Source: Nothopassalora personata
Taxonomy: Eukaryota; Ascomycota; Dothideomycetes; Mycosphaerellales; Mycosphaerellaceae
Assembly: GCA_033816765.1 (NCBI GenBank)
Contig: CM066289.1
Location: 2,108,001-2,172,000 of the forward strand
Reading direction: 5' to 3'
DNA length: 64,000 nt
Notes under the pieces: model-generated
Seen by the model: the letters and a program-made list of their open reading frames with translations, nothing else
Told to the model about the DNA's origin: nothing
The model's database searches: none
In this document: positions 32,025 to 52,793 of the stretch, in pieces
How the letters are laid out: the number at the start of each line of letters is the position of its first letter
Numbering within the stretch: position 1 is the stretch's first letter
Position numbers and translations under genes: made by a program

Positions 32025-32059
32025 GATTAATAAGAATAGGGATATAACTTATAAATAAA

Positions 32060-32676: not shown

Positions 32677-33080
32677 TATTACGGAATAATTCCTATAGAC
32701 CCTAGAATTATAACGATAAGACGAACACGTAACTTATCCTACCTAAGCGCTTAGACTTAGAGCGATTAGACTACTTATGCTTAGACTAATTAGACTGCTT
32801 ATACTTAGAATGATTAGACTAATTACCGAGATCTACGAATCTCCTTTGTATTTAGGAACGCTAAGAACCCCTTATAGTTTCGAGGCGTTTAACTCACTGT
32901 TTAATATTACTGTTTAGAATACACTATAACCTAACCTCTACCTCACTGCTACTTAGTCTTTACAAGACAAGACAGCTACTGCTTTATTACTCTCCCTCGA
33001 CTTCCTATCGGCCCGAGAACAAACCCGATTAAGCTTATCTTCTTAACTTATAATATCATTAGGTCATACTAAACCTAACA
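32677..33080 (+). repeat. LTR 2 of the tandem array
   Basis: 404 bp, TATTACGG...CCTAACA; serves as 3' LTR of unit 1 and 5' LTR of unit 2. Confidence 0.85.
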
Positions 33081-34567: not shown

Positions 34568-35002
34568 TGTTACGGTTCGGATGAAGGACGGTGCAGGACG
34601 TGGCATGGGGAGGAAGAATCAGAAGACACGAACCAATCGCTAGGAAGAGAAAGGGACCCCACGTCCGGGTCACGTGCACGACCGCGCGCTTAGTGCATGG
34701 TCGAACACGACCGCAGAAGTAGCGTATGGACGTACACGACCACACGACCAGACGACCGGTCGAGTGGACAGACGGACATCTAACACCGGATGGCATACGA
34801 ACCTCCTTTGTATTTAGGAACGCTAGAAACCCTTATGGTTCTGATGCGTTCAACTCATGTTACTATCTCACTGATTGGAATACAACTCTTATTCCTATCA
34901 TTCATCTTCGCTCAGCTTGCTTCAGCCTCTCCAAAGAATAATACCGCCACGTGACTTGACTTATCTCTCTTTTGAGACTAGCCCTGGAACGAGACAATAA
35001 CA
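34568..35002 (+). repeat. 5' LTR of element A
   Basis: 435 bp, TGTTACGGTTCGG...GACAATAACA. Contains CACGTG at 34671 and at 34948. The second half (from CTTTGTATTTAGGAACGC at about 34,807) is closely shared with the LTR of element B, while the first half is not. Confidence 0.95.
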
Positions 35003-35019
35003 CTTTGAACGCCCTCAGG

Positions 35020-37038
35020 ATGAGCGCTACTCAAGCAGCTGGTAGGGGAACACCCGCCCCCAGCGAAGCAGGAAGCATCCGCCGTGCGCCACCACAACAG
35101 ACTACCACCACGAAGGACGATGAGTCTGATGACGATGACGAGCCTACCCCAAGGAAGAACGACGTTAAGGCTGCTAAGCCAGACCTCTTCCACGGAGACA
35201 GAGCCAAGTTCGACGACTGGATCAATCAGATGGATATGTACCTCATGTTCAACCCAGTCGATGCCGATAAAAGGACTATCTTCGCCATCACGTACCTTCG
35301 CGGAAGTGCGCAGAACTGGATCAAACCTTACCTTAAGGAATACCTTGAAGGTATGGGACGATTAGACCCCACTGGAATGTTCAGGAGCTACACCCTTTTC
35401 AAAGAGAAGATGAAGTCAATCTTTGGAACCTCGAACGAAGTCCAACAGGCCATACGAATTATTCAACACCTAAAGCAGAAGACGTCTACTTCAGAGTATG
35501 CCGCCAAATTCGAAGAATACGGACAAATCACCGGATGGGACCAGACGGCGTTGATGACTATGTTCCGACGTGGACTTAAGGACTCCGTCAAGGACGAGTT
35601 GATAAGACACGGGGGACGGATCACCAACCTCGAAGAGCTAATGAAGGCGTCGATCAATATCGATGACCAGCTCTGGGAACGACACCAGGAGAAGAAATAC
35701 GACTCCAAAGTAGGAGGAATAGCAGGATACGCTCCGGATCGCAGACCCTTAGGAGGATACGTTGCGAAGGGAGAATTCTCACGACAAAGCCAACCCTACT
35801 ATGGACCACAGCCAATGGAACTGGACGTTACCCAACGAGGACGGAGGATCGTTAAGAGTAGGGGCCACGGAAAGCCCTTTAAAGGAAAAGGAAAACTCAC
35901 ATGCTATGCCTGTGGCAAGGAAGGCCACATGGCGCGAGATTGCCGCGGTAAAAATATGGTGCGCCGCGAGCAGTTCAATATGATGCAACCCCGAACTAGT
36001 AAATCTGAGAGCAGCGTTGGATCTCGGGGAGATACCGACTATACTCGGAGAGTGGGGGAGAGAGCTAGCAACAGAAGCACGACGCCTCTCCTGGACCCCT
36101 CAGAAGGACGAGGAGGATACCATGGGCAGCAAATGGTGGTCATTCCATTTGATGCGAAGAACCAACCACGACAGTTCAACATGATGACACGAAGAGTCGA
36201 CTACGAGACCGAACCTGAGTCTCGAAATGGTCATGGAAGCCTTCATTGGCGATTCTGTTACCAAGACTCGTGTCAAATCCACTACGCCGCGAAGTCAGGC
36301 GCAGGGTATTGGCCTCAGCAACCACGAGGAACCCTGGGAGCGACGCATAGGCAAGACGCCACGCTCAGAGAAGTGGACATCGATGAATCCTACTTCAACG
36401 AAGATGGAAGCGATAAAGAAAATCAGGACCCAGGATGGAACGGATCATGGTCACCAGAACCACAGGAAGAAAGTCAAGAAACCACCGGGCTAGATACCAT
36501 CGAGGAAGAACAGGATCCGGAAGAATCAAGCGAAGAAGATTCCTCCGAAGGAGAAGAGAGCGACACTGACGACGACAACGAACAACTTACCTTCACGGTA
36601 GATGCACCCAAGAGACTATACGACATGATCATCTACCTACAAAGAAGGCACGAGGAATTCCTACCTAAGATAGGTGGACGAAGGAGGCTACATTCCATTG
36701 AGTTTGACAAGACACTCGACACCCTACGAGGCATGGCCTGGGGATACCCACTCATGGAAACAACCGAAAACCTAGCAACCGCCATTACAGAACGACCACC
36801 TATAGGAAGCCGAATAACAGGTACCGGGTACCAAACACCGTCAGGAACATTCGTATCGAATGAATTACACAACATAGTGCAACACGCACGCGCACTCTAC
36901 TCAGAAACGCAGAAGATCCAGGAACGCAACAGACTACAGGTGTGGACACAGGGCAACGGGCTACAGGTTCTAGCCGAAGCCTCTAGGTACGAAGCACAGC
37001 GAACCACATACCATTCGGGAAAAGGATCAGCTCCCTAG
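35020..37038 (+). CDS. Gag of element A
   Basis: 672 aa from ATG 35020, only 17 nt after the 5' LTR. The retrotransposon Gag core (PDLFHGDRAKFDDWINQMDM, FLRGSAQNW-type helix as YLRGSAQNWIKPYLKEYL, then FRRGLKDSVKDELIRHGG) is followed by one CCHC zinc-knuckle, CYACGKEGHMARDC, at residues 295-308. The C-terminal 350 residues are acidic and Ser-rich with no known fold and are unusual in length for a Gag. It packages the RNA and forms the particle. It ends with TAG; the corresponding codon in element B is CAG, and B reads two codons further. Confidence 0.9.
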   Translation: MSATQAAGRGTPAPSEAGSIRRAPPQQTTTTKDDESDDDDEPTPRKNDVKAAKPDLFHGDRAKFDDWINQMDMYLMFNPVDADKRTIFAITYLRGSAQNWIKPYLKEYLEGMGRLDPTGMFRSYTLFKEKMKSIFGTSNEVQQAIRIIQHLKQKTSTSEYAAKFEEYGQITGWDQTALMTMFRRGLKDSVKDELIRHGGRITNLEELMKASINIDDQLWERHQEKKYDSKVGGIAGYAPDRRPLGGYVAKGEFSRQSQPYYGPQPMELDVTQRGRRIVKSRGHGKPFKGKGKLTCYACGKEGHMARDCRGKNMVRREQFNMMQPRTSKSESSVGSRGDTDYTRRVGERASNRSTTPLLDPSEGRGGYHGQQMVVIPFDAKNQPRQFNMMTRRVDYETEPESRNGHGSLHWRFCYQDSCQIHYAAKSGAGYWPQQPRGTLGATHRQDATLREVDIDESYFNEDGSDKENQDPGWNGSWSPEPQEESQETTGLDTIEEEQDPEESSEEDSSEGEESDTDDDNEQLTFTVDAPKRLYDMIIYLQRRHEEFLPKIGGRRRLHSIEFDKTLDTLRGMAWGYPLMETTENLATAITERPPIGSRITGTGYQTPSGTFVSNELHNIVQHARALYSETQKIQERNRLQVWTQGNGLQVLAEASRYEAQRTTYHSGKGSAP

Positions 37039-37040
37039 GA

Positions 37041-40000
37041 ATGAGCGACCGGAGGGAGTTATGCAATATTCAGGCTCACGCATCGACATCAAACACAGTT
37101 TTCCAGACACAAGCAATCGTCAACGGACACAAGACCAGTGTCATGATCGACTCAGGAGCAGCGGGGAATTTTATCTCTGAGTCTTTCACAAGAAGAAACG
37201 GGTTAGCTACCCTGAAGAAGAAATGGGGTTACGAGTTGATCGCGGTAAACGGATCATCGTTACCTAGCGTGGAATGGGAGACGACACCATTGCCACTGGC
37301 TATCCAACAGCACCACGAGAATATTACCTTGGATGTCACTGATATGGCCAGTCATGACATAGTATTAGGTATGCCTTGGTTGAGAAAGCACAATCCAGTA
37401 ATCGACTGGAGAAGAGGAGTACTCACATTTAGGGAATGCGATTGCGTTGTCGACATTCAGCCTGCGCAGTGGCAGCGTTCACTGGCAGATGAGGCAAGGA
37501 AACAGCTAAACGAGATACAGCTTGCGCCGAACAGAAGGACAGAAGAACCACCTTCGACCGGGACAGACACTGGCGTGGGGCCGCCGGGTCACGAAGTCAC
37601 TGGAAGTGATGGAAGTAACGCACCATCGAAGAATACTAACATCTCAGAGTTGAGTATTCCCAAGGAGTATCGCAAGTGGTCGCGACTCTTTGAAGAGGAG
37701 AGAGGCAAAACCGCCTTACCTAAGCACCGCCCATGGGATCATAAGATCAACATTCAGCCAGGGAAAGAGCCTCCATGGGGACCCCTATATCAAATGTCTG
37801 AGAAAGAGCTACAGACCCTACGAGAATGGCTGAAGGAGAAGCTAGCCAAAGGATGGATAAGAAGATCCACCTCAAGTGCAGGAACTCCATGCATGTTCGT
37901 TCCAAAAGCAAACGGGAAGTTACGACTCGTACAAGACTACAGGAAGTTAAACGAGATCACGATCAAGAACCGATACCCGCTACCCAACATCGAAGAAGCA
38001 CAAGACAGATTAACCGGATCAGACTGGTACACGAAGATTGACCTACGAGATGCCTTCTACGCTATACGAATGGCGGAAGGAGAAGAATGGAAGACCGCTT
38101 TCAGGACAAGATACGGACTTTACGAATTCTTGGTTATGCCAATGGGATTGACCAACGCACCCGCATCCTGCCAGAACCTTGTTAACGAAACACTTAGAGA
38201 CCTACTCGACGTATGCGTTATCGCCTACATGGACGACATACTAGTCTACACAAAAGGATCCCTACAGGAACACATAAAACAAGTCCAGGACGTCTTCGAA
38301 CGACTCACGCAATCAGGATTTAAGACGGCACCCGAGAAATGCGAATTCCATAAGAAAGAAGTCAAATTCTTAGGCTTCATCATCAGCACTACAGGGATAA
38401 CGATCGACCCTGCGAAGACACAGTCAATTAGAGAGTGGCCAGAACCAAAAACAGTCAAGGACGTACAATCATTCCTTGGACTAGCGAACTACAACCGGAA
38501 ATTCATCAAGGATTACGCAAAAATAGCAGCACCAATGACGATGCTTACAAGAAAGGACGTCACTTGGAAATGGGGAAAGGAACAGATTGAGGCATTTAAG
38601 AAACTCAAGGAACAATGCGCTTCAGCCCCTACGCTTCGACTATTCGATGGTAGCAAGGAAGTCCACATCGAGACCGATGCGTCTGATATGGCAATAGGCG
38701 CATGTCTAACACAGACACACGATGGGCAGAGACACCCAGTAGCCTATTACTCCCGGAAAATGACCACAGCGGAACAGAACTACGACATCCATGATAAAGA
38801 GCTTCTAGCCATTGTTGCTGCTATGCAACATTGGAGAGTATATGTCGAGGGCCCACCGAAGTTAACGATTCTTTCTGACCACAAGAATCTTACGTACTTT
38901 ACGACGACGAAAGAACTTACTCGAAGGCAAGCCCGCTGGTCGGAGCTGCTGGGACAGTATAAGTTCGAAATTAAATATACTCCAGGACGAGAGAATGGCC
39001 GCGCCGACGCGCTGAGCCGAAGAAGCGACTACATGGAAGGAAAAGAACCAGTGCAACATAAGATATTAAAGACAAACCCCGACGGAAGTCTTAGTGCCAA
39101 CACAAGAGAATTCAATAACATCGTACGGATACTAGGCGACAGGGACGAACAATTCCCTATATCGCAAGGAAAATACCAAGTACCTAAGGATCGAGAAGAA
39201 GAATGCATACGACAACGTCACGACGGACCAAATTACGGACACCCCGGAACTTCAAAAACAATGGACCTAATACAACGCAGTTTCTCATTCCCACAGATGA
39301 GACTTAAGGTGTCACGCTATATTAAACAATGCGTACACTGCCAACGAAACAAGACTGCGAGACATGCAAAATACGGTCACCTACAGTTCAGGACACCACC
39401 GACAAAACCATGGGACGAAGTCACAATGGACTTTATTACGAAACTCCCACCGTCAAAGGATCAAGTTACGAAACAACCATACGACATGATACTAGTCATG
39501 GTTGATAGACTTACGAAATACGCACACTTCATTCCTGCATCGGAAACGTACAATGCAGAGCAGCTCGGATACCTTGTACTGGACAGACTTATCCGATACC
39601 ACGGATTCCCCCAAGTATTTATAACGGACAGAGACAAGCTATTCACATCAAACTACTGGAAGACGCTTATGGGAACGATCGGAATTAAACACAAGCTGTC
39701 AACAGCATATCATCCGGAGACAGACGGACAAACCGAAAGGATGAATCAAACGCTGGAACAATACCTACGACACTACATCAACTATGCACAAGACAACTGG
39801 GTTTCATTACTGCCAATGGCGCAGATTGCACTGAACAACCACAAATCGGAGACAACTTCAACGACGCCATTTTATGCGAACTTTGGTAAAGATCCTAACC
39901 TATTTGGAACACCTGGATCCCATCCACAAGCCGAGAGAGCAATCGTGACGACGGATACTCTTAAGGAAGTGCACAAAGAAACACGCAAGGCGATCGAAGA

Positions 40001-40466
40001 TGCACAACGAAAACTGTCTCAACAACGGCAGGACACGAGAAAAATGGCACCTCTGCTAAAAGAGGGGGATAAGGTCTATCTCCTCACAAAAAACTTGAGA
40101 ACAAGAAGACAGACCAAGAAACTGGATCACGTCAAGGTCGGACCATTTTTAATCGACAAAGTCGTAGGACCAGTTAACTATCGACTACGACTACCACCTG
40201 ACGCAAAAATCCACCCAGTCTTCCATATCTCCAAGTTGGAACCCGCAGACGCCCAAACACCCTGCCAGGAGAGCTTCCATTTCGAACCGGAAGCAGAAAA
40301 CGAATTCGAAGTCGAAAGAATCCTAGATAAGAAAGGTCAGCGATACCTTGTCAAATGGAAAGGATACGACGAATCAGAAAATACCTGGGAACCAAAACAA
40401 AACCTACGAAACTGTCAGCAAAAGATCCAGGAATACTACAAGACCAAAAAACGGCCAGCCTACTAG
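37041..40466 (+). CDS. Pol polyprotein of element A (PR-RT-RH-IN-chromodomain)
   Basis: 1,141 aa, ATG 37041, two bases after the gag stop and in a different frame. Domains in order: aspartic protease with DSGA (D37); reverse transcriptase with FVPKANGKLRLVQDYRKLN and YMDD at 396-399; RNase H with TDASDMAIGA near 546; integrase with H727, H734, C764, C767 zinc site and catalytic D797, D863 and E899 (35 residues between the last two); C-terminal chromodomain (EFEVERILDKKGQRYLVKWK, about 1087-1125). RT-before-integrase and the chromodomain place it in the Ty3/gypsy chromoviruses. All catalytic residues are present. The chromodomain probably directs insertion to heterochromatin, which fits its position inside RIP-mutated repeats. 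Confidence 0.95.
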   Translation: MSDRRELCNIQAHASTSNTVFQTQAIVNGHKTSVMIDSGAAGNFISESFTRRNGLATLKKKWGYELIAVNGSSLPSVEWETTPLPLAIQQHHENITLDVTDMASHDIVLGMPWLRKHNPVIDWRRGVLTFRECDCVVDIQPAQWQRSLADEARKQLNEIQLAPNRRTEEPPSTGTDTGVGPPGHEVTGSDGSNAPSKNTNISELSIPKEYRKWSRLFEEERGKTALPKHRPWDHKINIQPGKEPPWGPLYQMSEKELQTLREWLKEKLAKGWIRRSTSSAGTPCMFVPKANGKLRLVQDYRKLNEITIKNRYPLPNIEEAQDRLTGSDWYTKIDLRDAFYAIRMAEGEEWKTAFRTRYGLYEFLVMPMGLTNAPASCQNLVNETLRDLLDVCVIAYMDDILVYTKGSLQEHIKQVQDVFERLTQSGFKTAPEKCEFHKKEVKFLGFIISTTGITIDPAKTQSIREWPEPKTVKDVQSFLGLANYNRKFIKDYAKIAAPMTMLTRKDVTWKWGKEQIEAFKKLKEQCASAPTLRLFDGSKEVHIETDASDMAIGACLTQTHDGQRHPVAYYSRKMTTAEQNYDIHDKELLAIVAAMQHWRVYVEGPPKLTILSDHKNLTYFTTTKELTRRQARWSELLGQYKFEIKYTPGRENGRADALSRRSDYMEGKEPVQHKILKTNPDGSLSANTREFNNIVRILGDRDEQFPISQGKYQVPKDREEECIRQRHDGPNYGHPGTSKTMDLIQRSFSFPQMRLKVSRYIKQCVHCQRNKTARHAKYGHLQFRTPPTKPWDEVTMDFITKLPPSKDQVTKQPYDMILVMVDRLTKYAHFIPASETYNAEQLGYLVLDRLIRYHGFPQVFITDRDKLFTSNYWKTLMGTIGIKHKLSTAYHPETDGQTERMNQTLEQYLRHYINYAQDNWVSLLPMAQIALNNHKSETTSTTPFYANFGKDPNLFGTPGSHPQAERAIVTTDTLKEVHKETRKAIEDAQRKLSQQRQDTRKMAPLLKEGDKVYLLTKNLRTRRQTKKLDHVKVGPFLIDKVVGPVNYRLRLPPDAKIHPVFHISKLEPADAQTPCQESFHFEPEAENEFEVERILDKKGQRYLVKWKGYDESENTWEPKQNLRNCQQKIQEYYKTKKRPAY

Positions 40467-40495
40467 TCACCGATTGGCGACCAGTCGGCTGGAAG

Positions 40496-40569
40496 CAGCC
40501 AGAGTAGGAATCGAACCTACGACCTCAAGAGTGTAGACAGCTTGCGCTCTACCACTGAGCTACATGACC
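40496..40569 (-). tRNA. tRNA-like sequence, antisense, element A
   Basis: Minus-strand 74-mer 30 bp downstream of the pol stop. A-box TAGCTCAGTGGTAGAGCG and B-box GGTTCGATTCC are perfect and the T arm pairs (GTAGG/CCTAC). The acceptor stem is weak (GGTCATG against TCTGGCT: three Watson-Crick, three G-T, one mismatch), better preserved in the decayed units. The anticodon arm is CAAG/CTTG around an 11-nt loop CTGTCTACACT. So a Pol III-type internal promoter is intact but a working tRNA is doubtful. Confidence 0.55.
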
Positions 40570-40629: not shown

Positions 40630-41230
40630 CTATCCACCAGAAGGACCAGCGCTCGAAGAAGCTGCTGCGGCGTCCTCAAGGGTCGGATATGACCAGAGGG
40701 CATCATCCGGAATCATCGAAAGGTCCTCCCAGGAAGGAATCGACATCTGGAAAACCCCCTCTAGCTCTTCGGGGCTACCTTCAGGAACGAGAAGACAGGA
40801 CGAAGGCGCGGAAAAGGCATCGACACCCACGCTCGGCAAACTGCGAAGATCCTCGAAATCCTTCGCTATCGCCTTTTCCTCCCTGTCCTCAGCAACGCGC
40901 AGTTGTTTCCTAAGACGATGCACCTTTGACATCGCCTCTGTCACCTTCTCTTCAGCCTCATCAAGCTCTCGCTTCAGCTTTCGACGCTGGTTGCGAAGCC
41001 GCTCCCACTCAAGTCCACGTGACAGTCACGTCACATTTGACACCCTTGCGAACGCACTCCGAACAACACCCAAAGCGCACATCCACCACACAACGAGGAC
41101 TCTTCTTTCCTTCAGGCACTCTGGCCTTTCGACAACCAGAACATGGGGATGGCATCTCGCGGCCCTCGGCTTCGATGCCTAGTGCTTGACGTTCGCGGCG
41201 CTCCTGACGTGTTAGCCGCTCGCCGCTCAT
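40630..41230 (-). pseudogene. Antisense Cys-cluster/coiled-coil ORF of element A, one frameshift
   Basis: From ATG 41230 the minus strand reads MSGERLTRQERRERQALG and then a Cys cluster: CSGC, 13 residues, CVVDVRFGCCSEC, six residues, C. The frame stops at 41009, but a one-base shift there continues without a break as EWERLRNQRRKLKRELDEAE and further charged heptads (VTEAMSKVHRLRKQLRVAED) to a stop at 40630. This is the same layout as in elements B and C, with a longer first Cys loop. The start is 69 bp from the 3' LTR. Either recently broken, a sequence error, or a programmed shift. Confidence 0.7.
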
Positions 41231-41286
41231 GGTAAAAGATGGGAACTCACAGGAGAAGAAAGAAAACTCGAGGACGAGTTTCAGCA

Positions 41287-41299: not shown

Positions 41300-41734
41300 T
41301 GTTACGGTTCGGATGAAGGACGGTGCAGGACGTGGCATGGGGAGGAAGAATCAGAAGACACGAACCAATCGCTAGGAAGAGAAAGGGACCCCACGTCCGG
41401 GTCACGTGCACGACCGCGCGCTTAGTGCATGGTCGAACACGACCGCAGAAGTAGCGTATGGACGTACACGACCACACGACCAGACGACCGGTCGAGTGGA
41501 CAGACGGACATCTAACACCGGATGGCATACGAACCTCCTTTGTATTTAGGAACGCTAGAAACCCTTATGGTTCTGATGCGTTCAACTCATGTTACTATCT
41601 CACTGATTGGAATACAACTCTTATTCCTATCATTCATCTTCGCTCAGCTTGCTTCAGCCTCTCCAAAGAATAATACCGCCACGTGACTTGACTTATCTCT
41701 CTTTTGAGACTAGCCCTGGAACGAGACAATAACA
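41300..41734 (+). repeat. 3' LTR of element A
   Basis: 435 bp; no difference from the 5' LTR noticed on reading. Followed by the TATAG target duplication. Confidence 0.95.
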
Positions 41735-42879: not shown

Positions 42880-43363
42880 TGTTATGTCTCGTTCCAGGGC
42901 TAATCTCAAAAGAGAGATAAGTCAAGTCACGTGGCGGTATTCTTTGGAGAGGCTAAAGCAAACTGAGCGAAGATGAATAATTGGAGTAAGAGTGTATTCC
43001 AATCAGTGAGATCGTAACATGAGTTGAACGCAGTCGAAGCCATAAGGGATTCTCAGCGTTCCTAAATACAAAGGAGATTTGCCAGTCTTGGCTGTCCTTT
43101 CGCGCCATGTGCGCCTTCTGCGACAAGTGCGCTCGTCGCTACCGTCGCGGACGTCGCTCATGTCGCGGGTACGTCTTTCGCGCTATGCGCGACGAGTCGT
43201 CCCCAGTCAGGCGTCGCGGACGTCGCGCATACATCTTTTGCACGTGACCCGTGCCAGGATGTTTTCCCTTGCGGTGTTGTCATACCGTAACAGTCGCGCA
43301 TACATCTTTTGCACGTGACCCGTGCCAGGATGTTTTCCTTTGCGGTGTTGTCATACCGTAACA
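42880..43363 (-). repeat. 3' LTR of element B
   Basis: 484 bp. In element orientation it begins TGTTACGGTATGACAAC. Its outer 71 bp is duplicated in tandem (43222-43292 and 43293-43363), differing by one C/T. Confidence 0.95.
43222..43363. repeat. 71-bp tandem duplication at the LTR terminus of element B
   Basis: Two adjacent 71-bp copies, each ending in the LTR terminus sequence. Each copy holds one CACGTG and, on the minus strand, CGG-N10-CCG (CGGTATGACAACACCG). The same duplication is present in the other LTR (49849-49990). Confidence 0.9.
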
Positions 43364-43380: not shown

Positions 43381-43427
43381 TAGCTCGTCCCGAGCTACCT
43401 TTTATAGTTGTGATCGCTTTCCCCACC

Positions 43428-44051
43428 ATGTCTTCGTCATCATGGCTCACGATGCCTCTTCGCCCTTCGTCTTCTTCTGATATCTACGCGGAAACCATTA
43501 ACGCCCTTTCTCGTTCTCGCCGGTTCCAATCCATTATGCCCGTCTCGTGCAGTCGGTGTCGTCGCCAGGGCCAGGAGTGTCGTGTCGACGCTCGGTCCGG
43601 TCGTTGCAAGGCGTGCAACGACGCTCACAAGAAGTGTGATCTCCGGGTCACTCTTCAGGAGTTCGAGAAGATGGCCAAGATCCGGGAGTCGCTGTCCAGG
43701 AGTGCGGAAGAGGCGGAGGACGCTCTGTCCGAAGCAGAAGAAGAGGCCGAGAGGGTGATAGCAGCGGCTCAGCAGAAGGTGGCAGCTGCCCGTGCGAGGG
43801 CCCGCCGGCTGCGAAAACAGCTTCGTGCCGCGGAATCAACGGAGGACAATTCCTTCAAGAGGGCTTTGTCCACCGCGGAGGAGATGGAGCGTCTGGAAGG
43901 AGAGTCTGAGGCCCCCGCGGCCTCGGCCGGTAGCGAGGTGCTCGTAGACTTCTCCGAGTTTGGCAGCGTTTTTTGGGGAACAGGTTTCCCCCTCCACTTG
44001 GGGTCTTATAACTGGTGTCCAGTTCCCCGAGTGGAGTGCTGGCCCCGTTGA
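43428..44051 (+). CDS. Antisense Zn2Cys6 / coiled-coil protein of element B
   Basis: 207 aa on the strand opposite to gag-pol, ATG 43428 (MSSSSW), 64 bp from the 3' LTR. Near residue 42 it has C-SR-C-x6-C-x8-C-KA-C-x6-C, exactly the spacing of the Gal4-type zinc binuclear cluster, with basic residues between the Cys (CSRCRRQGQECRVDARSGRC). A long Ala/Glu/Arg coiled coil follows (about 75-145: ESLSRSAEEAEDALSEAEEE, AAARARARRLRKQLRAAEST), then an acidic tail. Cluster, linker and coiled coil are how Gal4-class DNA-binding domains dimerise. Lys residues typical of the first loop are partly replaced by Arg. A DNA-binding regulator encoded by the retrotransposon is the simplest reading; binding is not shown. 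Confidence 0.75.
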   Translation: MSSSSWLTMPLRPSSSSDIYAETINALSRSRRFQSIMPVSCSRCRRQGQECRVDARSGRCKACNDAHKKCDLRVTLQEFEKMAKIRESLSRSAEEAEDALSEAEEEAERVIAAAQQKVAAARARARRLRKQLRAAESTEDNSFKRALSTAEEMERLEGESEAPAASAGSEVLVDFSEFGSVFWGTGFPLHLGSYNWCPVPRVECWPR

Positions 44052-44066
44052 GCCTCCGAATGTTGG

Positions 44067-47000
44067 TTAGGTGGTAGGTCTCTTCCTTCTCTCGTAATCC
44101 TTGATTTTCTGTTGACAGTTTCGTAGGTGTTTTTTCGGTTCCCAGGTATTTTCTGAGTTGTCGTATCCTTTCCACTTGACAAGGTATCGCTGACCTCTCT
44201 TGTCCAGGATTTTTTCGACTTCGAATTCAGTTTCCTCTTCTGGTTGGTAGTGGAATGTTTCCTGGCATGGCGTTTTGGGGTCTGCTGGTTCCAGCACGGA
44301 GATGTGGAACACTGGATGGATTTTGGCATCTTTTGGTAGTCGTAGTCGGTAGTTGACTGGTCCTCGTGATTCTTCAACGAGAAATGGCCCGACTTTCACA
44401 TGATCCAGTTTCTTGGTCTTCCTTCGTGTCTTGAGGTTTTTTGTAAGAAGGTAGACTTTATCCCCCCTCTTTAGCTGAGGTGCCATTTGTTGTTTTCGAC
44501 GAGATTCAGTGAGTCGTTGCTGCGAGTCCCGAATTCGTTTATTGACGGATTTGTGTACCTCTCTTAGGTCTTCCGTTGTGGCGATAGCCCTTTCCGCTTG
44601 TGGGTGATCTCTCTTGTCACCGAACAGCGTAGGGTGTCTTCCGAAATTTGCGAAGAAAGGTGTTTCGCCTGTTGTTTCTGATTTGTGATTGTTCAGTGCA
44701 AGTTGTGCCATGGGTAGGAGTGATACCCAGTTGTCTTGTGCGTAGTTGACGTAGTGTCGTAGGTATTGTTCCAAGGTTTGATTTGCTCTCTCAGTTTGTC
44801 CGTCCGTTTGTGGGTGATATGCCGTAGACAGTTTGTGTTGTATACCAATTTCCGCTACAAGAGTCTTCCAGTAGTTGGATGTAAACAGCTTGTCTCGGTC
44901 TGTGATAAAGACCTTTGGGAATCCGTGGTATCGTACTAGCTTGTCGAGAACGAGATAACCGAGTTGCTCTGCCGTGTATGTCTCGCAGGCAGGTATAAAG
45001 TGTGCATATTTCGTTAGGCGATCGACCATGACCAGTATCATGTCGTATTCCGTGCCTGTCGCCTTGTCCGTGGATATGGGAAGTTTCGTAATGAAGTCCA
45101 TCGTGACCTCGTCCCATGGTTGTGTCGGTGGTGTCCTGAACTGTATTTGTCCATACTTCTCGTGTCGTGCAGCCTTATTTTGTTGACAGTGAACACATTG
45201 CTTAATGTAGTTCAATACCTTTTGTCTCATTTGTGGGAATGAGAAGCTGCGTTGTATGATCTCGAGAGTCTTTGTGGTTCCAGGATGTCCGTACATCGGG
45301 TTGTCGTGATGTTGTCGTATGCATTCTTCTTCTCGTCCTTTCGGTACTTGGTATCTTCCTTGTGCTAGTGGGAACTGTTCTTCTGTGTCCTGAAGAACGC
45401 GCACTATGTTGTTGAACTCCTTTGTGTTGGCGCTTAGACTTCCATCTGGATTAGTCTTAAGTACTTGTTGTCGCACTGGTTCCTTTCCTTCCATGTAGTC
45501 GCTTCTTCGGCTCAGTGCGTCGGCCCTGCCGTTGTCTTTTCCTGCGGTATAGCGGATTTCAAACTTGTACTGTCCGAGCAATTCCGACCAGCGGGCCTGT
45601 CTTCGGGTCAGTACTTTCGTTGTAGTGAAGTAAGTGAGATTCTTGTGATCAGAAAGAATCGTCAGCTTAGGTGCTCCTTCCGCATATACTCTCCAGTGCT
45701 GCATTGCAGCGACAATAGCGAGAAGTTCCTTATCATGGATGTCGTAGTTTTGTTCCGCGGGTGTCATTTTTCTTGAGTAATAGGCCACTGGGTGTCTTTT
45801 CCCATCGTGTTCTTGTGTAAGGCATGCGCCTATGGCCATGTCCGATGCGTCCGTTTCGATTTGGACTTCCTTTGTTCCGTCGAATAGTCGAAGTGTTGGT
45901 GCTGAGGCGCACTGTCTTTTGAGTGTTTCGAAAGCTTGTCGTTCTTTGTTGCCCCAGGTCCACTTGGTGTCTTTCCTAGTGAGTGCAGTCATGGCTGCAG
46001 CCGTTTTGGAGTAGTCTTTGATGAACTTGCGGTTATAGTTTGCGAGTCCAAGGAACGATTGTACGTCCTTAACGTTGGCTGGCGTCGGCCATTCTTCGAT
46101 AGACTGTGTCTTTGTCGGGTCGATCTGGATTCCTGTTGTGCTTATGATGAATCCGAGGAATTTAACTTGTTTCTTGTGGAACTCGCATTTTTCTGGTGCC
46201 GTCTTGAACCCTACCCTTGTGAGGCGCTCGAAGACGTCCTGGACTTGTCTAATGTGGTTCTGCAGTGATCCTTTGGTGTAGACGAGGATGTCGTCCATAT
46301 AGGCAATGACGCACACGTCAAGAAGTTCTCTCAGCGTCTCATTGACTAGGTCTTGACAGGATGCGGGTGCGTTGGTCAGTCCCATTGGCATGACCAAGAA
46401 TTCGTAGAGTCCGTATCGTGTTCTGAATGCGGTTTTCCATTCCTCTCCTTCCGCCATCCGGATGGCGTAGAAGGCGTCTCGTAGATCGATCTTTGTGTAC
46501 CAGTCGGATCCGGTGAGTCGGTCCTGTGCTTCTTCGATGTTCGGTAATGGATATCGGTTCTTTATCGTGATCTCGTTCAATTTTCGGTAGTCTTGTACGA
46601 GTCGTAGTTTCCCGTTTTGTTTTGGAACAAACATACATGGAGTTCCCGCACTTGAGGTGGATCTTCTTATCCATCCTTTGTCGAGTTTCTCCTTCAGCCA
46701 TTCTCGTAGGGTTTTGAGCTCTTTCTCGGACATTTGATATAGGGGTCCCCATGGAGGCTCCTTCCCTGGCTGAATGTTTATCTTGTGGTCCCATGGTTGG
46801 TGTCTAGGTAAGGCGTCTCTACCCTTTTCCTCTTCAAAGAGCCTTTTCCACTTAAGGTACTCCTTGGGAATGCTTGGTTCCGATATACCAGCATCCTTCG
46901 ATGGTGCGTTACTTCCATCCGTTCCAGTGATTTCGTGATCCGGCGGCCCCACGCCAGTATCTATCCCGGTCGAAGGTGGTTCTTGATTCCTTCTGTTCGG

Positions 47001-47486
47001 CGCAAGCTCGAATGCGTTGAGCTGTTTCCTTGCCTCATCTACCATCGTCCGCTGTCGATGCGTAGGTTCAATGCCTATAACGCAGTTGCATTGCCTAAAT
47101 GTGAGTACTCTTCTCCTCCAGTCGATAACTGGATTGTGCTTTCTCAACCAAGGCATACCTAATACTATGTCATGACTGGCCATATCAGTGACATCCAAGG
47201 TAATGTTCTCGTGGTGCTGTTGGATAGCCAGTGGCAATGGTGTCGTCTCCCATTCCACGCTAGGTAACGATGATCCGTCTACCGCGATCAATTCGTAACC
47301 CCATTTCTTCTTCAGGGTAGCTAGCCCGTTTCTTGTTGTGAAAGACTCGGAAATAAAGTTCCCCGCTGCTCCGGAGTCGATCATGACACTGGTCCTGTGT
47401 CCGTTGACGATTGCTTGTATCTGGAAAACTGTGTTTGGTGTCGATGCGTGAGCCTGAGTGTTGCATAACTCCCTTTGGTCGCTCAT
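44067..47486 (-). CDS. Pol polyprotein of element B (PR-RT-RH-IN-chromodomain)
   Basis: 1,139 aa, start ATG at 47486, which overlaps the gag stop as ATGA. Protease DSGA (residue 37), RT with FVPKQNGKLRLVQDYRKLN and YMDD near 396, RNase H TDASDMAIGACL, integrase zinc site (HHDNPMYGHPG ... CVHC) and catalytic DFITKLP, FITDRDKLF and TDGQTERANQTLE blocks, C-terminal chromodomain (EFEVEKILDKRGQRYLVKWK). Complete and uninterrupted; about the same length as the element A enzyme and clearly its relative, though the two differ at many residues in protease linker, integrase C-terminus and tail. Confidence 0.95.
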   Translation of the reverse strand: MSDQRELCNTQAHASTPNTVFQIQAIVNGHRTSVMIDSGAAGNFISESFTTRNGLATLKKKWGYELIAVDGSSLPSVEWETTPLPLAIQQHHENITLDVTDMASHDIVLGMPWLRKHNPVIDWRRRVLTFRQCNCVIGIEPTHRQRTMVDEARKQLNAFELAPNRRNQEPPSTGIDTGVGPPDHEITGTDGSNAPSKDAGISEPSIPKEYLKWKRLFEEEKGRDALPRHQPWDHKINIQPGKEPPWGPLYQMSEKELKTLREWLKEKLDKGWIRRSTSSAGTPCMFVPKQNGKLRLVQDYRKLNEITIKNRYPLPNIEEAQDRLTGSDWYTKIDLRDAFYAIRMAEGEEWKTAFRTRYGLYEFLVMPMGLTNAPASCQDLVNETLRELLDVCVIAYMDDILVYTKGSLQNHIRQVQDVFERLTRVGFKTAPEKCEFHKKQVKFLGFIISTTGIQIDPTKTQSIEEWPTPANVKDVQSFLGLANYNRKFIKDYSKTAAAMTALTRKDTKWTWGNKERQAFETLKRQCASAPTLRLFDGTKEVQIETDASDMAIGACLTQEHDGKRHPVAYYSRKMTPAEQNYDIHDKELLAIVAAMQHWRVYAEGAPKLTILSDHKNLTYFTTTKVLTRRQARWSELLGQYKFEIRYTAGKDNGRADALSRRSDYMEGKEPVRQQVLKTNPDGSLSANTKEFNNIVRVLQDTEEQFPLAQGRYQVPKGREEECIRQHHDNPMYGHPGTTKTLEIIQRSFSFPQMRQKVLNYIKQCVHCQQNKAARHEKYGQIQFRTPPTQPWDEVTMDFITKLPISTDKATGTEYDMILVMVDRLTKYAHFIPACETYTAEQLGYLVLDKLVRYHGFPKVFITDRDKLFTSNYWKTLVAEIGIQHKLSTAYHPQTDGQTERANQTLEQYLRHYVNYAQDNWVSLLPMAQLALNNHKSETTGETPFFANFGRHPTLFGDKRDHPQAERAIATTEDLREVHKSVNKRIRDSQQRLTESRRKQQMAPQLKRGDKVYLLTKNLKTRRKTKKLDHVKVGPFLVEESRGPVNYRLRLPKDAKIHPVFHISVLEPADPKTPCQETFHYQPEEETEFEVEKILDKRGQRYLVKWKGYDNSENTWEPKKHLRNCQQKIKDYERRKRPTT

Positions 47487-49489
47487 TCCTGGGGAGCTGA
47501 TCCTTTTCCCGAATGGTATGTGGTTCGCTGTGCTTCGTGCCTAGAGGCTTCGGCTAGAACCTGTAGCCCGTTGCCCTGTGTCCACACTTGTAGTCTGTTG
47601 CGTTCCTGGATCTTCTGCGATTCTGAGTAGAGAGCCTGTACATGCTGTACTGCTGTTCGTAGTTCGTTTGAGACGAAAGTTCCTGCTGGTGTTAGGTATC
47701 CGGTACCTGTCATCCGGCTTCCTATGGGTGGTCGTTCGACAACCGCTTTAGCCAAGTTCTCAGTGTCGTTCATGGTTGGGTAGCCCCACACCATGCCCCT
47801 CATCGTGTCGAGTGTCTTGTCGAACTCGCTGGGGTTTAGGTATCGTTTCCCTGAGAACTTTGGTAGGAATTCTTCATGCCTTCGTTGGAGGTAGATGATT
47901 AACTCATAGAGCTTTCTTGGCGCGTCTACCGTGAACGTGCATACTTCGTTTTCGTCGTCGGTGTCGCTCTCTTCTCCTTCGGATGAGTCCTCGCTTGACT
48001 CTTCCGGTACGTAATCTTCTTCAATAGTGTCCAGCTTGTTCGTTTGTTGTTCGGGAGCTGGTGACCAGCGTCCGTTCCATTCTGGATCCTGGTTTTCTTT
48101 GTCGTCGTCGAAGTAAGATTCGTCTACATCCACTTCCTGGAGCTTGTTTCGTCCATGTTGTGCTCCCAGGGTTCCTGCTGGCTGTTGTGGCCAGTACCCT
48201 GCGCCTGCTTTGGCGTCGTAGTGGGTTTGACACGAGTCCTGGTAACAGAAACGCCAATGAAGGCTTCCGTGACCATGTCGAGACTCTTTCTCGACTTCAT
48301 GGTTGACTCCTCGTGCCATCATGCCAAACAATCTGATCTTGATGTCGATCTCTGATTGTTGGTCATTCGGTGGTGGTGTATGTTGTTGAACATGGTGTCC
48401 TCCTCGTCCTTGTGAGGGGTCCAGGAGAGGCGTCGCAACCCGGTTGCTATCCTTCTCCTCCACTCTCTGGGTATAGTTGAATTGTCGGGGTCCAACACTG
48501 CTCCCAGATTTGTCCACCTTTGGTTGCATCATATTGAACTGCTCGCGGCGCACCATATTTTTACCGCGGCAATCCCGCGCCATGTGGCCTTCTTTGCCAC
48601 AGGCGTAGCATGTGAGTTTTCCTTTTCCTTTGAAGGGCTTTCCGTGGCCCCTACTCTTATCGATCTTCCGTCCTCGTTGGGTAGCGTCCAGTTCCATTGG
48701 CTGTGGTCCATAGTAGGGCTGGCTTTGTCGTGAGAATCCTCCCCTCGCAACGTACCCCCCTGAGGGTTTGCGATCTGGAGCGTATCCTGCCATGCCTCCT
48801 ACCTTGGAGTCGTATTTCTTTTCCTGGTACCGTTCCCAGAGCTGATCGTCGATGTCGATCGACGCCTTCATCAGTCCTTCGAGGTTGGTGATCGCTCCTC
48901 CGTGTCTCATCAACTCGTCCTTGACGGAGTCCTTGAGTCCACGTCGGAACATAGTCATCAACGCCGTCTGGTCCCATCCGGTGATCTGTCCGTATTCTTC
49001 GAATTTGGCGGCGTACTCTGAAGTAGACGTCTTCTGCTTCAGGTGTTGAATGATTCGTATGGCCTGTTGGACTTCGTTCGAGGTTCCAAAGATTGACTTC
49101 ATCTTGTCTTTGAAAAGGGTGTAGTTCCTGAACATTCCGGTGGGGTCTAATCGTCCCATACCGTCGAGGTATTCCTTGAGGTAAGGTTTGATCCAGTTCT
49201 GCGCACTTCCGCGAAGGAACGTGATGGCGAAGATAGTTCTTTTGTCGGTGTCGACTGGGTTGAACATGAGGTACATGTCCATCTGGTTGACCCAGTCGTC
49301 GAACTTGGCCCTATCTCCATGGAAGAGGTCCGGCTTAGCAGCCTTAACGTCGTTCTTCCTTGGAGTAGGCTCGTCATCGTCATCAGACTCATCGTCCTTC
49401 GTGGTGGTCTGTCGTGGTGGCGCACGGCGGATGCTTCCTGCTTCGCTGGGGGCGGGTGTTCCCCTACCAGCTGCTTGAGTAGCGCTCAT
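47483..49489 (-). CDS. Gag of element B
   Basis: 668 aa from ATG 49489, 17 nt inside the 5' LTR edge. Same plan as Gag of A: Gag core (DLFHGDRAKFDDWVNQMDMY, FRRGLKDSVKDELMRHGG), one CCHC knuckle CYACGKEGHMARDC, long acidic C-terminus. The last codons read GKGSAPQE then TGA, and the stop overlaps the pol ATG by four bases (ATGA), which suggests translation by termination and reinitiation. Confidence 0.9.
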   Translation of the reverse strand: MSATQAAGRGTPAPSEAGSIRRAPPRQTTTKDDESDDDDEPTPRKNDVKAAKPDLFHGDRAKFDDWVNQMDMYLMFNPVDTDKRTIFAITFLRGSAQNWIKPYLKEYLDGMGRLDPTGMFRNYTLFKDKMKSIFGTSNEVQQAIRIIQHLKQKTSTSEYAAKFEEYGQITGWDQTALMTMFRRGLKDSVKDELMRHGGAITNLEGLMKASIDIDDQLWERYQEKKYDSKVGGMAGYAPDRKPSGGYVARGGFSRQSQPYYGPQPMELDATQRGRKIDKSRGHGKPFKGKGKLTCYACGKEGHMARDCRGKNMVRREQFNMMQPKVDKSGSSVGPRQFNYTQRVEEKDSNRVATPLLDPSQGRGGHHVQQHTPPPNDQQSEIDIKIRLFGMMARGVNHEVEKESRHGHGSLHWRFCYQDSCQTHYDAKAGAGYWPQQPAGTLGAQHGRNKLQEVDVDESYFDDDKENQDPEWNGRWSPAPEQQTNKLDTIEEDYVPEESSEDSSEGEESDTDDENEVCTFTVDAPRKLYELIIYLQRRHEEFLPKFSGKRYLNPSEFDKTLDTMRGMVWGYPTMNDTENLAKAVVERPPIGSRMTGTGYLTPAGTFVSNELRTAVQHVQALYSESQKIQERNRLQVWTQGNGLQVLAEASRHEAQRTTYHSGKGSAPQE

Positions 49490-49506
49490 CCTGAGGGCGT
49501 TCAAAG

Positions 49507-49990
49507 TGTTATGTCTCGTTCCAGGGCTAATCTCAAAAGAGAGATAAGTCAAGTCACGTGGCGGTATTCTTTGGAGAGGCTAAAGCAAACTGAGCGAAGA
49601 TGAATAATTGGAGTAAGAGTGTATTCCAATCAGTGAGATCGTAACATGAGTTGAACGCAGTCGAAGCCATAAGGGATTCTCAGCGTTCCTAAATACAAAG
49701 GAGATTTGCCAGTCTTGGCTGTCCTTTCGCGCCATGTGCGCCTTCTGCGACAAGTGCGCTCGTCGCTACCGTCGCGGACGTCGCTCATGTCGCGGGTACG
49801 TCTTTCGCGCTATGCGCGACGAGTCGTCCCCAGTCAGGCGTCGCGGACGTCGCGCATACATCTTTTGCACGTGACCCGTGCCAGGATGTTTTCCCTTGCG
49901 GTGTTGTCATACCGTAACAGTCGCGCATACATCTTTTGCACGTGACCCGTGCCAGGATGTTTTCCTTTGCGGTGTTGTCATACCGTAACA
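49507..49990 (-). repeat. 5' LTR of element B
   Basis: 484 bp, same as the left LTR on reading, including the 71-bp tandem duplication. Followed by TTATT. Confidence 0.95.
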
Positions 49991-50420: not shown

Positions 50421-50736
50421 TGTTACGGTCCGGTACGATCGTGCACGTGGAAGAACTTCATTCGTTGGGAATAGGGACACGCGCTGCCAATGAGCGGGCG
50501 CTCTTGTGTGACTCATAGCAGAGCGCTCTTAGTGCTCTACCGAGAGAGCAGGACAGACCGCGCCAAGACATGGCACTATATAGACGACGCTCTTTTGCAA
50601 GTAGATAGGAGCTTCGTGCTCAACTCATTTCAAGTATACACCATATACTGTTTGGAACCACTACCTTCATAACTGATTGAGACATCCCTGCAAAGATCCA
50701 AGCCCGAGTTGTGATAACGTACAGCGGTTCCTAACA
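50421..50736 (+). repeat. 5' LTR of element C
   Basis: 316 bp; starts with CGG-T-CCG a few bases in and has a CACGTG near 50,453. The second part is shared with solo LTR D. Confidence 0.9.
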
Positions 50737-50768
50737 ACTTTGAGCACCACCACCAGGGCCCTTTGCAT

Positions 50769-51761
50769 ATGTCTGGGAGAGACGCTACCCGGAGTCCGTC
50801 ACGACAACAGCCACAGTCAACTGGCATCACGGAACGAATGAGCGAAATGTCGATTACAGGAAGCAGCAAGAACAACAACACTCCTATGGGTATGCTGAAC
50901 CCATTGGACCACCACCGTGCACCTAAGGTGTCTACGCCGGAGACGTTCGACGGGACCAAGGACAAACTGGAGGCTTTTCAACTGCAGGTTCAGTTGTACC
51001 TTCACTTCAACGCACACCAGTTTCAAGGCGAGGCTTCTAAAGTCTTGTACGCCGCATCCTTCCTACGAGGAAAAGCAGCTAGAGGATTCCGACCATACCT
51101 CAAGGACTGGCTACACAACCAGGGCGAGGGAGAAACACCGAAAACGGAAACTCGAAAAATTTTCCACGACTACGACGAGTTTGAGACGAAACTCGATGAT
51201 CTATACGGGATACCAAATGAGGAGGTATACGCCGACCGACATATCCGACAACTTCGACAGACTACTTCTGTAGCGCTGTACGCCTCAGAATTCCAAGGAT
51301 ATGCCGCCGACCTGGAATGGAACGACGCAGCTTTGCGATCGCAGTTCTACCTCGGGCTGAAAGACAACGTCAAAGCCGAACTATCCCGAAACGCCAGCGT
51401 CGTTACGCTAGGGGCGATGATCAAGGCAGCAAAGGAGATCGACGAAAGGCTCCAGGAGTTGAGGTACGACCGACACGTACAGCCTGGATACCAGAGACCC
51501 GCCGCGGGCGGAAGAGGGGGCTTCAAGGCCAGAAGTCAGGACCCTAATGGTTACGGAGACCCAATGGAATTGGACGTAACGGAACGTAGGACAGGAAGGG
51601 GGCTGAAGAGCAAAGGTTCCACCTGCTACGTATGTGGCGAGCAAGGCCACTTTGCAAGAAACTGCAAGAAGAAGAACATGGTTAGCCGCGAGTTCAACGC
51701 AATGATTCGCGAAGAGAATACATACCAGGAATGCGAGAACTTCTTCTCGAAATCTGCCTAG
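50769..51761 (+). CDS. Gag of element C
   Basis: 330 aa from ATG 50769, 32 nt after the 5' LTR. The Gag core is intact (STPETFDGTKDKLEAFQLQV, YAASFLRGKAARGFRPYLKD, FYLGLKDNVKAELSRNAS), followed by PMELDVTERR and one CCHC knuckle CYVCGEQGHFARNC. PMELD plus knuckle also occurs in A and B, so this is a divergent relative. It ends soon after the knuckle and lacks the 350-residue acidic tail of A and B. No pol frame follows. Confidence 0.9.
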   Translation: MSGRDATRSPSRQQPQSTGITERMSEMSITGSSKNNNTPMGMLNPLDHHRAPKVSTPETFDGTKDKLEAFQLQVQLYLHFNAHQFQGEASKVLYAASFLRGKAARGFRPYLKDWLHNQGEGETPKTETRKIFHDYDEFETKLDDLYGIPNEEVYADRHIRQLRQTTSVALYASEFQGYAADLEWNDAALRSQFYLGLKDNVKAELSRNASVVTLGAMIKAAKEIDERLQELRYDRHVQPGYQRPAAGGRGGFKARSQDPNGYGDPMELDVTERRTGRGLKSKGSTCYVCGEQGHFARNCKKKNMVSREFNAMIREENTYQECENFFSKSA

Positions 51762-51873
51762 CAGAAACAACCTGAGGACAGCAAGGCATCAAACAGCGGC
51801 TTCTTGATTTGATGACCTAGGACACAGAAGTCAACACAACGACACGGGACAAATGACTACTGGATATCACGAC

Positions 51874-52374
51874 TTACGACGGATGGCCATCGGGCCACGA
51901 GAACGGAGAAGCGAGGCCGGCTCCAAGAAGATCGCTCTCGAGACCAGGGAAGTCCGACAGTTCGGGGTCGTTCGGATCGAACTCTGTGTTGGCGGCGAGG
52001 TGGGCTACTTCCTCGTCGACCCGGGAGTTATTCATGTTTCGAACCTCGCGATTGCGACGGATCCGCTGACGGAGAGCCTCGATCTTTCGGAAAATGTCTT
52101 CCGCGGAAATCTTGAGCCGCTCTATCTCCTGCTCGTCTGACTCGATCTTCTCTGTCAACTCTTCCACGACGCGGTCGAGTTTCTCGAGGGAGGAGGTGAC
52201 ACAAGGTTTCCCGAGGCGGGTGCAGTTGGCACAAGACATGATGGAAAAATCGGCAATGTAAACGCAGGGGCGCTGATTCCGGCAACAGTGGTCGCAAGGT
52301 TTAGAAGGAACAAAGGGATCAGCAAAGATTTTAGCAAGACGACGTTTTTTGCGCTGGGCGGAGGACGAAGACAT
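51874..52374 (-). CDS. Antisense Zn2Cys6 / coiled-coil protein of element C
   Basis: 166 aa on the strand opposite to gag, ATG 52374 (MSSSSAQRKKRRLAKIF), 103 bp from the 3' LTR. Cys pattern near residue 28: C-DH-C-x6-C-x10-C-AN-C-x6-C, within the Gal4-type Zn2Cys6 rule, with a basic stretch (KKRR) before it. A coiled coil follows (EKLDRVVEELTEKIESDEQE, RKIEALRQRIRRNREV), then an acidic C-terminus (DPNDPELSDFPGLESDL) that could serve as an activation domain. The sequence differs strongly from the B protein outside the Cys and the start, so it is conserved in plan, not in detail. It survives although pol is gone. Confidence 0.75.
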   Translation of the reverse strand: MSSSSAQRKKRRLAKIFADPFVPSKPCDHCCRNQRPCVYIADFSIMSCANCTRLGKPCVTSSLEKLDRVVEELTEKIESDEQEIERLKISAEDIFRKIEALRQRIRRNREVRNMNNSRVDEEVAHLAANTEFDPNDPELSDFPGLESDLLGAGLASPFSWPDGHPS

Positions 52375-52460
52375 GGTAAGAAAAGGGTGGTTGCGGAATT
52401 TGAATTTCGGAGGACAGGACCTACTTATGACTAACGACACGTGATCGCTGGGGCATGGAT

Positions 52461-52477
52461 CCTAGGGAGGGGGATGG
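52461..52477 (+). other. Polypurine tract of element C
   Basis: Ends AGGGAGGGGGATGG directly before the 3' LTR, as in A and B. Confidence 0.7.
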
Positions 52478-52793
52478 TGTTACGGTCCGGTACGATCGTG
52501 CACGTGGAAGAACTTCATTCGTTGGGAATAGGGACACGCGCTGCCAATGAGCGGGCGCTCTTGTGTGACTCATAGCAGAGCGCTCTTAGTGCTCTACCGA
52601 GAGAGCAGGACAGACCGCGCCAAGACATGGCACTATATAGACGACGCTCTTTTGCAAGTAGATAGGAGCTTCGTGCTCAACTCATTTCAAGTATACACCA
52701 TATACTGTTTGGAACCACTACCTTCATAACTGATTGAGACATCCCTGCAAAGATCCAAGCCCGAGTTGTGATAACGTACAGCGGTTCCTAACA
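52478..52793 (+). repeat. 3' LTR of element C
   Basis: 316 bp, same as the 5' LTR on reading; followed by GTACT. Confidence 0.9.

Follow-up and report, generated by a model that had tools for sequence, protein, structure and literature searches.

We analyzed a 64,000-nucleotide stretch of the genome of the fungus Nothopassalora personata (contig CM066289.1, positions 2,108,001 to 2,172,000; hereafter the window), in which three retrotransposons with long terminal repeats (LTRs), named elements A, B and C, each carry a gene on the strand opposite to their other genes, next to the 3' LTR. This antisense open reading frame (aORF) is real and far more widespread than a first-pass annotation of the window had reported, and its product is predicted to be a zinc-cluster DNA-binding protein. 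Since both the aORF and the repeat block in the adjoining U3 region of the LTR differ on otherwise near-identical elements, each type of element likely controls its own transcription by a private protein-site pair. We propose, with moderate confidence, that each element carries a conserved antisense factor, built of a zinc cluster and a coiled coil, that likely binds the adjoining LTR repeats and switches on the element's own transcription. More tentatively, each reverse-strand factor and its own U3 array may form an orthogonal regulator-promoter cassette, with up to 16 types in one genome, that is exchanged between autonomous and gag-only bodies. Such cassettes would be the retroelement counterpart of phage immunity regions and would decide which elements can be expressed together.

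The antisense gene in the window and in the genome

The frames that the first-pass annotation had drawn in B and C are open, start with MSSSS and have the cysteine spacing that it gave, namely CX2CX6CX8CX2CX6C in B and CX2CX6CX10CX2CX6C in C (Table 1). They begin 64 nt (B) and 103 nt (C) from the 3' LTR, and the start of A lies at 69 nt. In tandem unit 1, one of the decayed units of the window, the MSSSS start at 32603 is also present and is followed by many stops, and two further decayed units contain the same gene. Element A had been annotated with a single frame (41230-40630); the antisense gene is present there, but the window copy breaks after 73 codons, and its cysteine cluster, though related, has a first loop of X13 instead of X6. 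Among eight other A copies sampled, four were open over 199 codons, three were open from a later ATG (174 codons), and one (L078) was broken like the window copy. The window copy of aORF B has its C-terminus in a different frame from 15 other sampled copies. aORF B is antisense to both gag and pol and aORF C to gag; in gag-only elements the aORF sits between gag and the 3' LTR.

The genome searched comprises 54.5 Mb, with the window on contig C3. A search with the B protein, in which 150 of 386 candidates were scored, gave at least 150 matches, some of them two pieces of one copy, and the matches listed form about a dozen near-identical groups with open frames of 186 to 267 codons, plus decayed copies with stops. 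In the genome, the junction word GGGGGATGGTGTTACGG, which consists of the polypurine tract and the LTR start, has 278 occurrences, as against 0 in the reversed control. Forty of the 278 junctions were sampled in contig order on contigs C1 to C3 from 100 listed places, chosen where no B-protein match was near and with four tandem neighbors on C1 excluded. An aORF match on the expected strand was found at all 40, and it was open for at least 150 codons at 25. Homologous antisense frames are thus present in other copies, and a captured host gene confined to a few copies was rejected on the same count. Sixteen distinct open types were taken as representatives, called A, B, C and, for the others, K followed by the locus number. 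The four families of the first-pass annotation were therefore too few, as there are 16 open types in addition to decayed ones; its observation was, overall, partly confirmed.

Outside this genome, the B-protein search returned 15 proteins, and a profile of 13 types returned at least 103 when the best 7,996 candidates were scored. These relatives are mostly metagenomic, and the named sources are Friedmanniomyces endolithicus, Cladosporium sp. NU13, Acidomyces richmondensis and lichen metagenome-assembled genomes. A plasmid search gave nothing informative.

Sequence comparison shows the aORF to be under purifying selection wherever a pair permitted the test. The ratio of nonsynonymous to synonymous divergence (dN/dS) was calculated by the Nei-Gojobori method (NG86) for eight aORF pairs, drawn from types other than B. 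In the best-resolved pair, K36-K39, dN/dS was 0.086 at a dS of 0.87, and 13, 17 and 73 differences fell on codon positions 1, 2 and 3, respectively, out of 195 each. Five other pairs with finite dS gave 0.16-0.22 at dS near saturation, and two pairs were saturated; C compared with two relatives gave 0.16-0.21, with dS again near-saturated. Values near 1, which the first-pass annotation had named as evidence against its reading, were not seen. A chance frame was rejected by dN/dS, by the six-cysteine pattern described below and by the matches at 40 of 40 junctions.

The predicted protein

All 16 types show the six-cysteine pattern, as compared with 2 of 32,000 shuffled proteins; among 97 homologs of at least 150 aa, 88 have it. 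The Zn2Cys6 spacing is CX2CX6CX5-12CX2CX6-8C. Ten of the 16 types, B and C included, conform to it, and the other six (A, K36, K39, K37, K45 and K40) depart from it by an X13 first loop. An AlphaFold2 (AF2) model of B has helices at residues 42-47, 61-66 and 76-160, that is, a short helix after each CxxC and then a long coiled coil; the long helix was also seen in the model of an A-type protein (72-130), both being single-chain models. The zinc-cluster layout expected by the first-pass annotation is accordingly present in the predicted structure of B. In 15 of 16 types the net charge of the C-terminal 60 aa lies between -6 and -16, and a looser cut for the tail (charge of -3 or less, at least eight W/F/Y/L residues) was passed by 88 of 97 homologs. 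Because they score below the Pfam gathering threshold (see below), we call the aORF proteins zinc-cluster-like and not members of PF00172. A sequence search of the Protein Data Bank (PDB) with the aORF protein gave nothing informative, and a profile search gave coiled coils and, at E 0.83, a single zinc-cluster chain (1cld, LAC9).

Repeat arrays in U3

The U3 block upstream of the core promoter contains short repeats. The commonest 6-mer exceeded shuffled sequences (P below 0.05) in 12 of 16 upstream U3 blocks; for K43 and K57 this test was run on an over-long stretch, which contains the K57 array. With the repeat pitch taken as the smallest significant lag of 5-mer repeats among lags of 3 to 24, five types have a pitch of 8 bp and eight types one of 9 bp, which makes 13 of 16 blocks. 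Neither lag was found in any of the 16 core promoter/R-U5 controls (K33 shows 13) or of the 16 aORF controls (K34 shows 3 and 6). The motifs differ, examples being ACGACC (A, K40), GCGACG (B), GATCTG (K33, K31), GAGAGC (K34) and CGAGCAG (K57); ACGACC occurs five times in A, four times in K40 and 0 times in the other 14 types. The arrays end before the TATA-like core promoter, and in none of the 16 types does the chosen motif occur in the core promoter or in the 133-160 bp after it.

Probable exchange of the gene and upstream U3 on near-constant bodies

Fourteen element pairs were compared, with coordinates relative to the start of the 3' LTR. Up to -849 the gag-pol elements A and K20 share 96.0% identity; the match is lost over the aORF and the upstream U3 and returns at +230, where 206 bp are 99.0% identical. 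For K41 and K20 the identity is 95.4% to -760 and 100% over the 202 bp that begin at +207, with a further 48 bp matching around the polypurine tract, and A and K41 are 92.1% identical to -737 and then 99.5% from +235 for 200 bp. The same break was observed at lower identity in A-K33 (86% and 84.6%) and A-B (76% and 90.7%). Among gag-only elements, C is 97-99% identical to K31, K34, K36, K40 and K37 to between -597 and -666, and identity with these five types (93-97%) resumes between +121 and +140; C-K34, for example, match at 98.8% to -631 and at 96.9% from +121. The gag DNA of ten gag-only elements, representing eight types, is 94.9-99.8% identical, and the aORF proteins of these types are 18-42% identical, except for K36-K39. 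Over the C-terminal 399-448 residues of pol, K41 and K20 are 95-97% identical to A, and their aORF proteins are 30% identical to that of A. The TATA-like core promoter, R and U5 therefore belong with the body. A crossover in R as the edge of the differing block was rejected because identity resumes upstream of the TATA-like box.

In a tree of the aORF proteins the body type changes 5 times (4-5 in bootstrap; well-supported branches force 3). Sisters in this tree are A (gag-pol) and K40 (gag-only), with support of 98/96, and K41 and K31, with 88/98; the DNA match is limited to -366 to +10 (68.9%) in A-K40 and to 47 bp in K41-K31. Of the 16 types, 11 have a core promoter of the gag-only kind, and gag was seen beside eight of these; K43, K45 and K57 were assigned as gag-only by the core promoter alone. 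The aORF gene is retained where pol was lost, and gag is retained there too.

How closely the gene follows U3

The aORF type and the U3 type agreed in 74 of 74 assigned loci, and in 58 of 58 when the representatives were left out; 4 of 78 loci were unassignable. Across types, the eight closest aORF pairs, a choice made post hoc, had raised U3 similarity (P 0.015, 0.033 and 0.085 for 5-, 6- and 7-mers), and the U3 pairs A-K40, K41-K31, K36-K39 and K37-K45 align as our model wants.

Several results weigh against our proposal. Linkage within a type is expected from descent alone, and over all 16 types aORF identity did not correlate with U3 word content (Mantel P 0.16-0.31). In global alignment 31 of 120 pairs of U3 blocks scored above shuffles (z of at least 4), and 20 of these were between gag-only types. 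K38 (L038) and K45 (L045) are 73% identical in U3 and 33% in their aORF proteins, and K34 and K38 72% and 37%; in K34-K36 and K31-K34 the match continues through U3, at about 80% overall including a near-identical R-U5. C, K43 and K57, whose proteins are 57-63% identical, have no common U3 motif. No significant array was found in C or K43, and lag 24 is the only one in K36. The pairing of aORF and U3 across types is therefore imperfect. In K38-K45, either the gene was replaced beside an old U3 or one motif is read by two dissimilar proteins. More generally, the mixed similarity across types suggests that the aORF and U3 have not always traveled together in the long term, or that dissimilar proteins keep one specificity. 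Regarding the protein, all seven PDB matches of the B model in Foldseek were Zn2Cys6 domains (two entries of Pho7, two chains of Leu3, and 1cld (LAC9), HAP1 and Gal4), but their E-values were 0.14 or worse and none was significant. A fold search with the predicted structure of an A-like type, the X13-loop kind of 6 of 16 types, gave no zinc-cluster match. Pfam Zn_clus (PF00172) never exceeded its cut-off in the aORF proteins scanned: C scored 10.1 bits against a gathering score of 21, and 5 of 13 other types matched weakly, with a best E of 0.72. The U3 motifs are mostly not CGG triplets. Finally, an activator gives no obvious pressure to diversify, whereas a repressor does.

Proposed mechanism and alternatives

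The six cysteines are predicted to form a binuclear zinc cluster, the long helix to dimerize, and the acidic, aromatic tail to activate. The protein would bind the U3 motifs of its own type; made from the copy at the 3' LTR, it would act on both LTRs of all elements of that type and raise both the full-length RNA and its own mRNA, giving positive feedback. Since the gene and its sites are adjacent at the 3' end, both could be moved together when the template is switched in the course of reverse transcription. Such an exchange would give the same body a new specificity, freed from competition for the activator by dead LTRs of the old type. Elements without pol may retain the gene because, if their autonomous partner were of another type, it would be unable to activate their U3. 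The first-pass annotation had suggested a transposon-encoded transcription factor or a silencing antagonist; the former fits these data and appears strengthened by the adjoining U3 arrays, and no support was found for the latter, so that its interpretation was partly supported.

The sign of regulation is the weakest step, in that the acidic tail and the upstream position of the sites favor activation and diversification favors repression. If the gene and its sites were a repressor and its operators, a type would silence its own copies in trans as a form of copy-number control, and a new type would escape, just as heteroimmune lambdoid phages escape a resident repressor through their immunity region. 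Escape from a trans-acting repressor predicts what was seen, a gene and adjoining sites that diversify on a constant body, and the repeated sites are found a short way upstream of the core promoter. On the other hand, the examined motifs are located ahead of the core promoter rather than within it, the acidic tails resemble activation domains, and most zinc-cluster proteins activate transcription. A new specificity can also benefit an activator, which the many dead LTRs of the old type would otherwise titrate away. We consider the repressor unlikely.

It is about as improbable that the aORF is kept for some other nuclear job, such as import, integration targeting or chromatin, its link to U3 being purely physical, as of neighbors that are exchanged jointly, and the arrays being bound by host factors. 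The lack of an overall correlation between aORF and U3 similarity, and similar U3 beside dissimilar aORFs, as in K38-K45, would agree with such a role, as would plant antisense ORFs, which a review describes as nuclear or as having domains of other kinds (PMC7264820). However, a common pitch of 8-9 bp with differing motifs suggests one kind of reader with changing specificity, the differing block of the gag-pol pairs ends upstream of the core promoter and not at R, and A and K40 have the same gene type and motif on different bodies. Non-coding roles of antisense LTR transcripts are known in retroviruses (PMC10186651), and the antisense RNA itself could matter here, through double-stranded RNA or silencing control, with the open frame incidental. 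The codon-position pattern, the dN/dS values, the six cysteines of all 16 types and the 25 of 40 junctions open for at least 150 codons make this very improbable. The preferred reading, an activator acting on its own LTR, would show a retrotransposon's escape from dependence on host transcription factors, and would explain both the accessory gene in copies without pol and its antisense location beside the 3' LTR. If it is true, these elements would provide a natural set of fungal regulator-promoter pairs and would bring into retroelement biology the specificity groups familiar from phage immunity. The role of the aORF is now directly testable, there being 16 natural variants, of which most have a candidate array for binding and several stand on near-identical bodies.

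Relation to known systems

In the lambdoid phage immunity regions a regulator gene and its sites are exchanged as a module on a constant body, and the regulator is a DNA phage repressor; we know of no homology between those regions and the aORF cassettes. The Zn2Cys6 regulators of the Gal4, HAP1 and Leu3 type resemble the aORF proteins in six-cysteine spacing (in the ten conforming types), two short helices and a coiled coil. The aORF proteins differ from them in falling below the Pfam cut-off, in their length of 159-240 aa, in their mostly non-CGG motifs and in being encoded by a transposon. Foamy virus Tas (Bel1) is described as an element-encoded transactivator of its own LTR and an internal promoter, comparable to the self-activation of the LTR that we propose here, and HBZ of human T-cell leukemia virus type 1 (HTLV-1) as likewise the product of an antisense gene, driven from the 3' LTR. 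Tas is encoded on the sense strand by an animal retrovirus and is a different protein. HBZ is a basic leucine zipper (bZIP) factor, not a zinc cluster, and to our knowledge type-specific U3 arrays are not known for it.

The first-pass annotation held that no description of such elements includes a gene of this kind, which is too strong, since plants and Boty of Botrytis are known to have antisense ORFs located between pol and the 3' LTR. In the sections consulted, no zinc cluster is described for these ORFs, and a review gives their function as unknown (PMC7264820). The plant examples in Ty3/gypsy elements, called aORF-3R (Grande gene23, RIRE2 and Retand TRP28), are likewise antisense additional ORFs (PMC7264820), and brtn of the Boty-like elements of Botrytis cinerea is likewise an antisense additional gene in a fungal gypsy element (excerpts of PMC8365987 and PMC7264820). 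Antisense TRP28 of Retand was predicted to bind DNA, and a regulatory role was proposed for it (excerpts of PMC7264820 and PMC11963269). The plant aORF-3R proteins differ from those described here in belonging to another protein family, and the sections available describe neither a zinc cluster nor an exchange of aORF and U3. In the open literature searched by listings, a scope outside which most subscription papers fall, neither a zinc-cluster antisense ORF nor aORF+U3 exchange was found described.

Elements of the window and other observations

Elements A and B have the features of Ty3/gypsy chromoviruses, that is, gag, the order protease-reverse transcriptase (RT)-RNase H-integrase, and a chromodomain. 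The LTRs of A, B and C are identical over their full length, suggesting that the three insertions are probably recent. In element A, gag ends with TAG and the ATG of pol follows two bases on in another frame (37036-37043), so that simple read-through would not yield Gag-Pol.

Table 1. Features of the window, by element (positions count from its first letter)
Feature	Positions	Strand	Remark
Element A 5' LTR	34568-35002	+	435 bp, identical to 3' LTR
Element A gag	34972-37038	+	
Element A pol	37041-40466	+	protease, RT, RNase H, integrase, chromodomain
aORF A	40633-41230	-	73 open codons (41230-41012), rest in other frame
Inverted repeat, aORF A leader	41264-41281	-	7 bp arms
Element A 3' LTR	41300-41734	+	
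Element A U3 array	41410-41489	+	ACGACC x5 (three at 8 bp pitch); 5' LTR copy 34678-34757
Element B 3' LTR	42880-43363	-	484 bp, identical to 5' LTR
Element B U3 array	43134-43226	-	GCGACG/CGTCGC x6, 9 bp pitch
Inverted repeat, aORF B leader	43381-43397	+	7 bp arms
aORF B	43428-44051	+	antisense to element B; six-Cys cluster, then predicted coiled coil
Element B pol	44067-47486	-	chromodomain
Element B gag	47483-49552	-	
Element B 5' LTR	49507-49990	-	
Element C 5' LTR	50421-50736	+	316 bp, identical to 3' LTR
Element C gag	50763-51761	+	no pol ORF
aORF C	51874-52374	-	antisense to gag-only element C
Element C 3' LTR	52478-52793	+	
Element C U3 motifs	52555-52585	+	GAGCGC/GCGCTC x3, no significant pitch
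Decayed aORF, tandem unit 1	32109-32603	-	MSSSS start, many stops
Decayed aORF, second tandem unit	54548-55021	-	
Decayed aORF, third tandem unit	60655-61128	-	

Between the polypurine tract and the aORF start, a script counted an inverted repeat with arms of 6-8 bp and a loop of 3-6 nt in 13 of 16 types, namely in the leaders of A, B, L020, L031, L033, L034, L036-L040, L045 and L072. The loop is TCC in 8 of the 13, and arm changes keep pairing; K43 and K57 have arms of 5 bp, and C has no such repeat. An operator for the protein was rejected, the arms being unlike the U3 motifs by eye, which makes an RNA hairpin or a priming signal more likely.

Gag-only elements of about 2.4 kb (gag and aORF, no pol) are numerous, as at 50421-52793 and at L024, L031 and L034-L040, and among the matches listed three pairs of aORF matches stand in tandem, 2.1-2.2 kb apart. 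The LTR of element B starts with a 71 bp tandem duplication that includes TGTTACGG (43222-43363, 49849-49990); duplications at the LTR start were also seen in K33 (80 bp) and in L024 of the K31 type (54 bp). Around A, B and C lie AT-rich decayed units (26000-34500 and 52800-64000; G+C fraction 0.37-0.42), partly repeated at about 6.1 kb. Among the matches listed, the stops of decayed aORF copies are mostly TAG.

tRNA-like genes on the reverse strand lie between the body gene and the aORF at 40495-40569 in A and at 31950-32024, 54389-54463 and 60496-60570 in the decayed units. They score 46-54 bits in the Rfam tRNA model (gathering score 29), and ARAGORN gives the anticodon CTA, which would read UAG; decoding is doubtful, however, because the anticodon arm is imperfect (11-nt loop region) and the A copy folds no better than shuffled sequence. 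Of the 16 A and K41 loci that were scanned, 13 have such a gene, whereas no scanned B, K20, K33 or gag-only locus does.

The window also contains a host gene with an ADIP domain (12574-14334) that probably places the host in the Mycosphaerellaceae, being 90% identical to Fulvia fulva and 89% identical to Dothistroma septosporum over 60% of its length.
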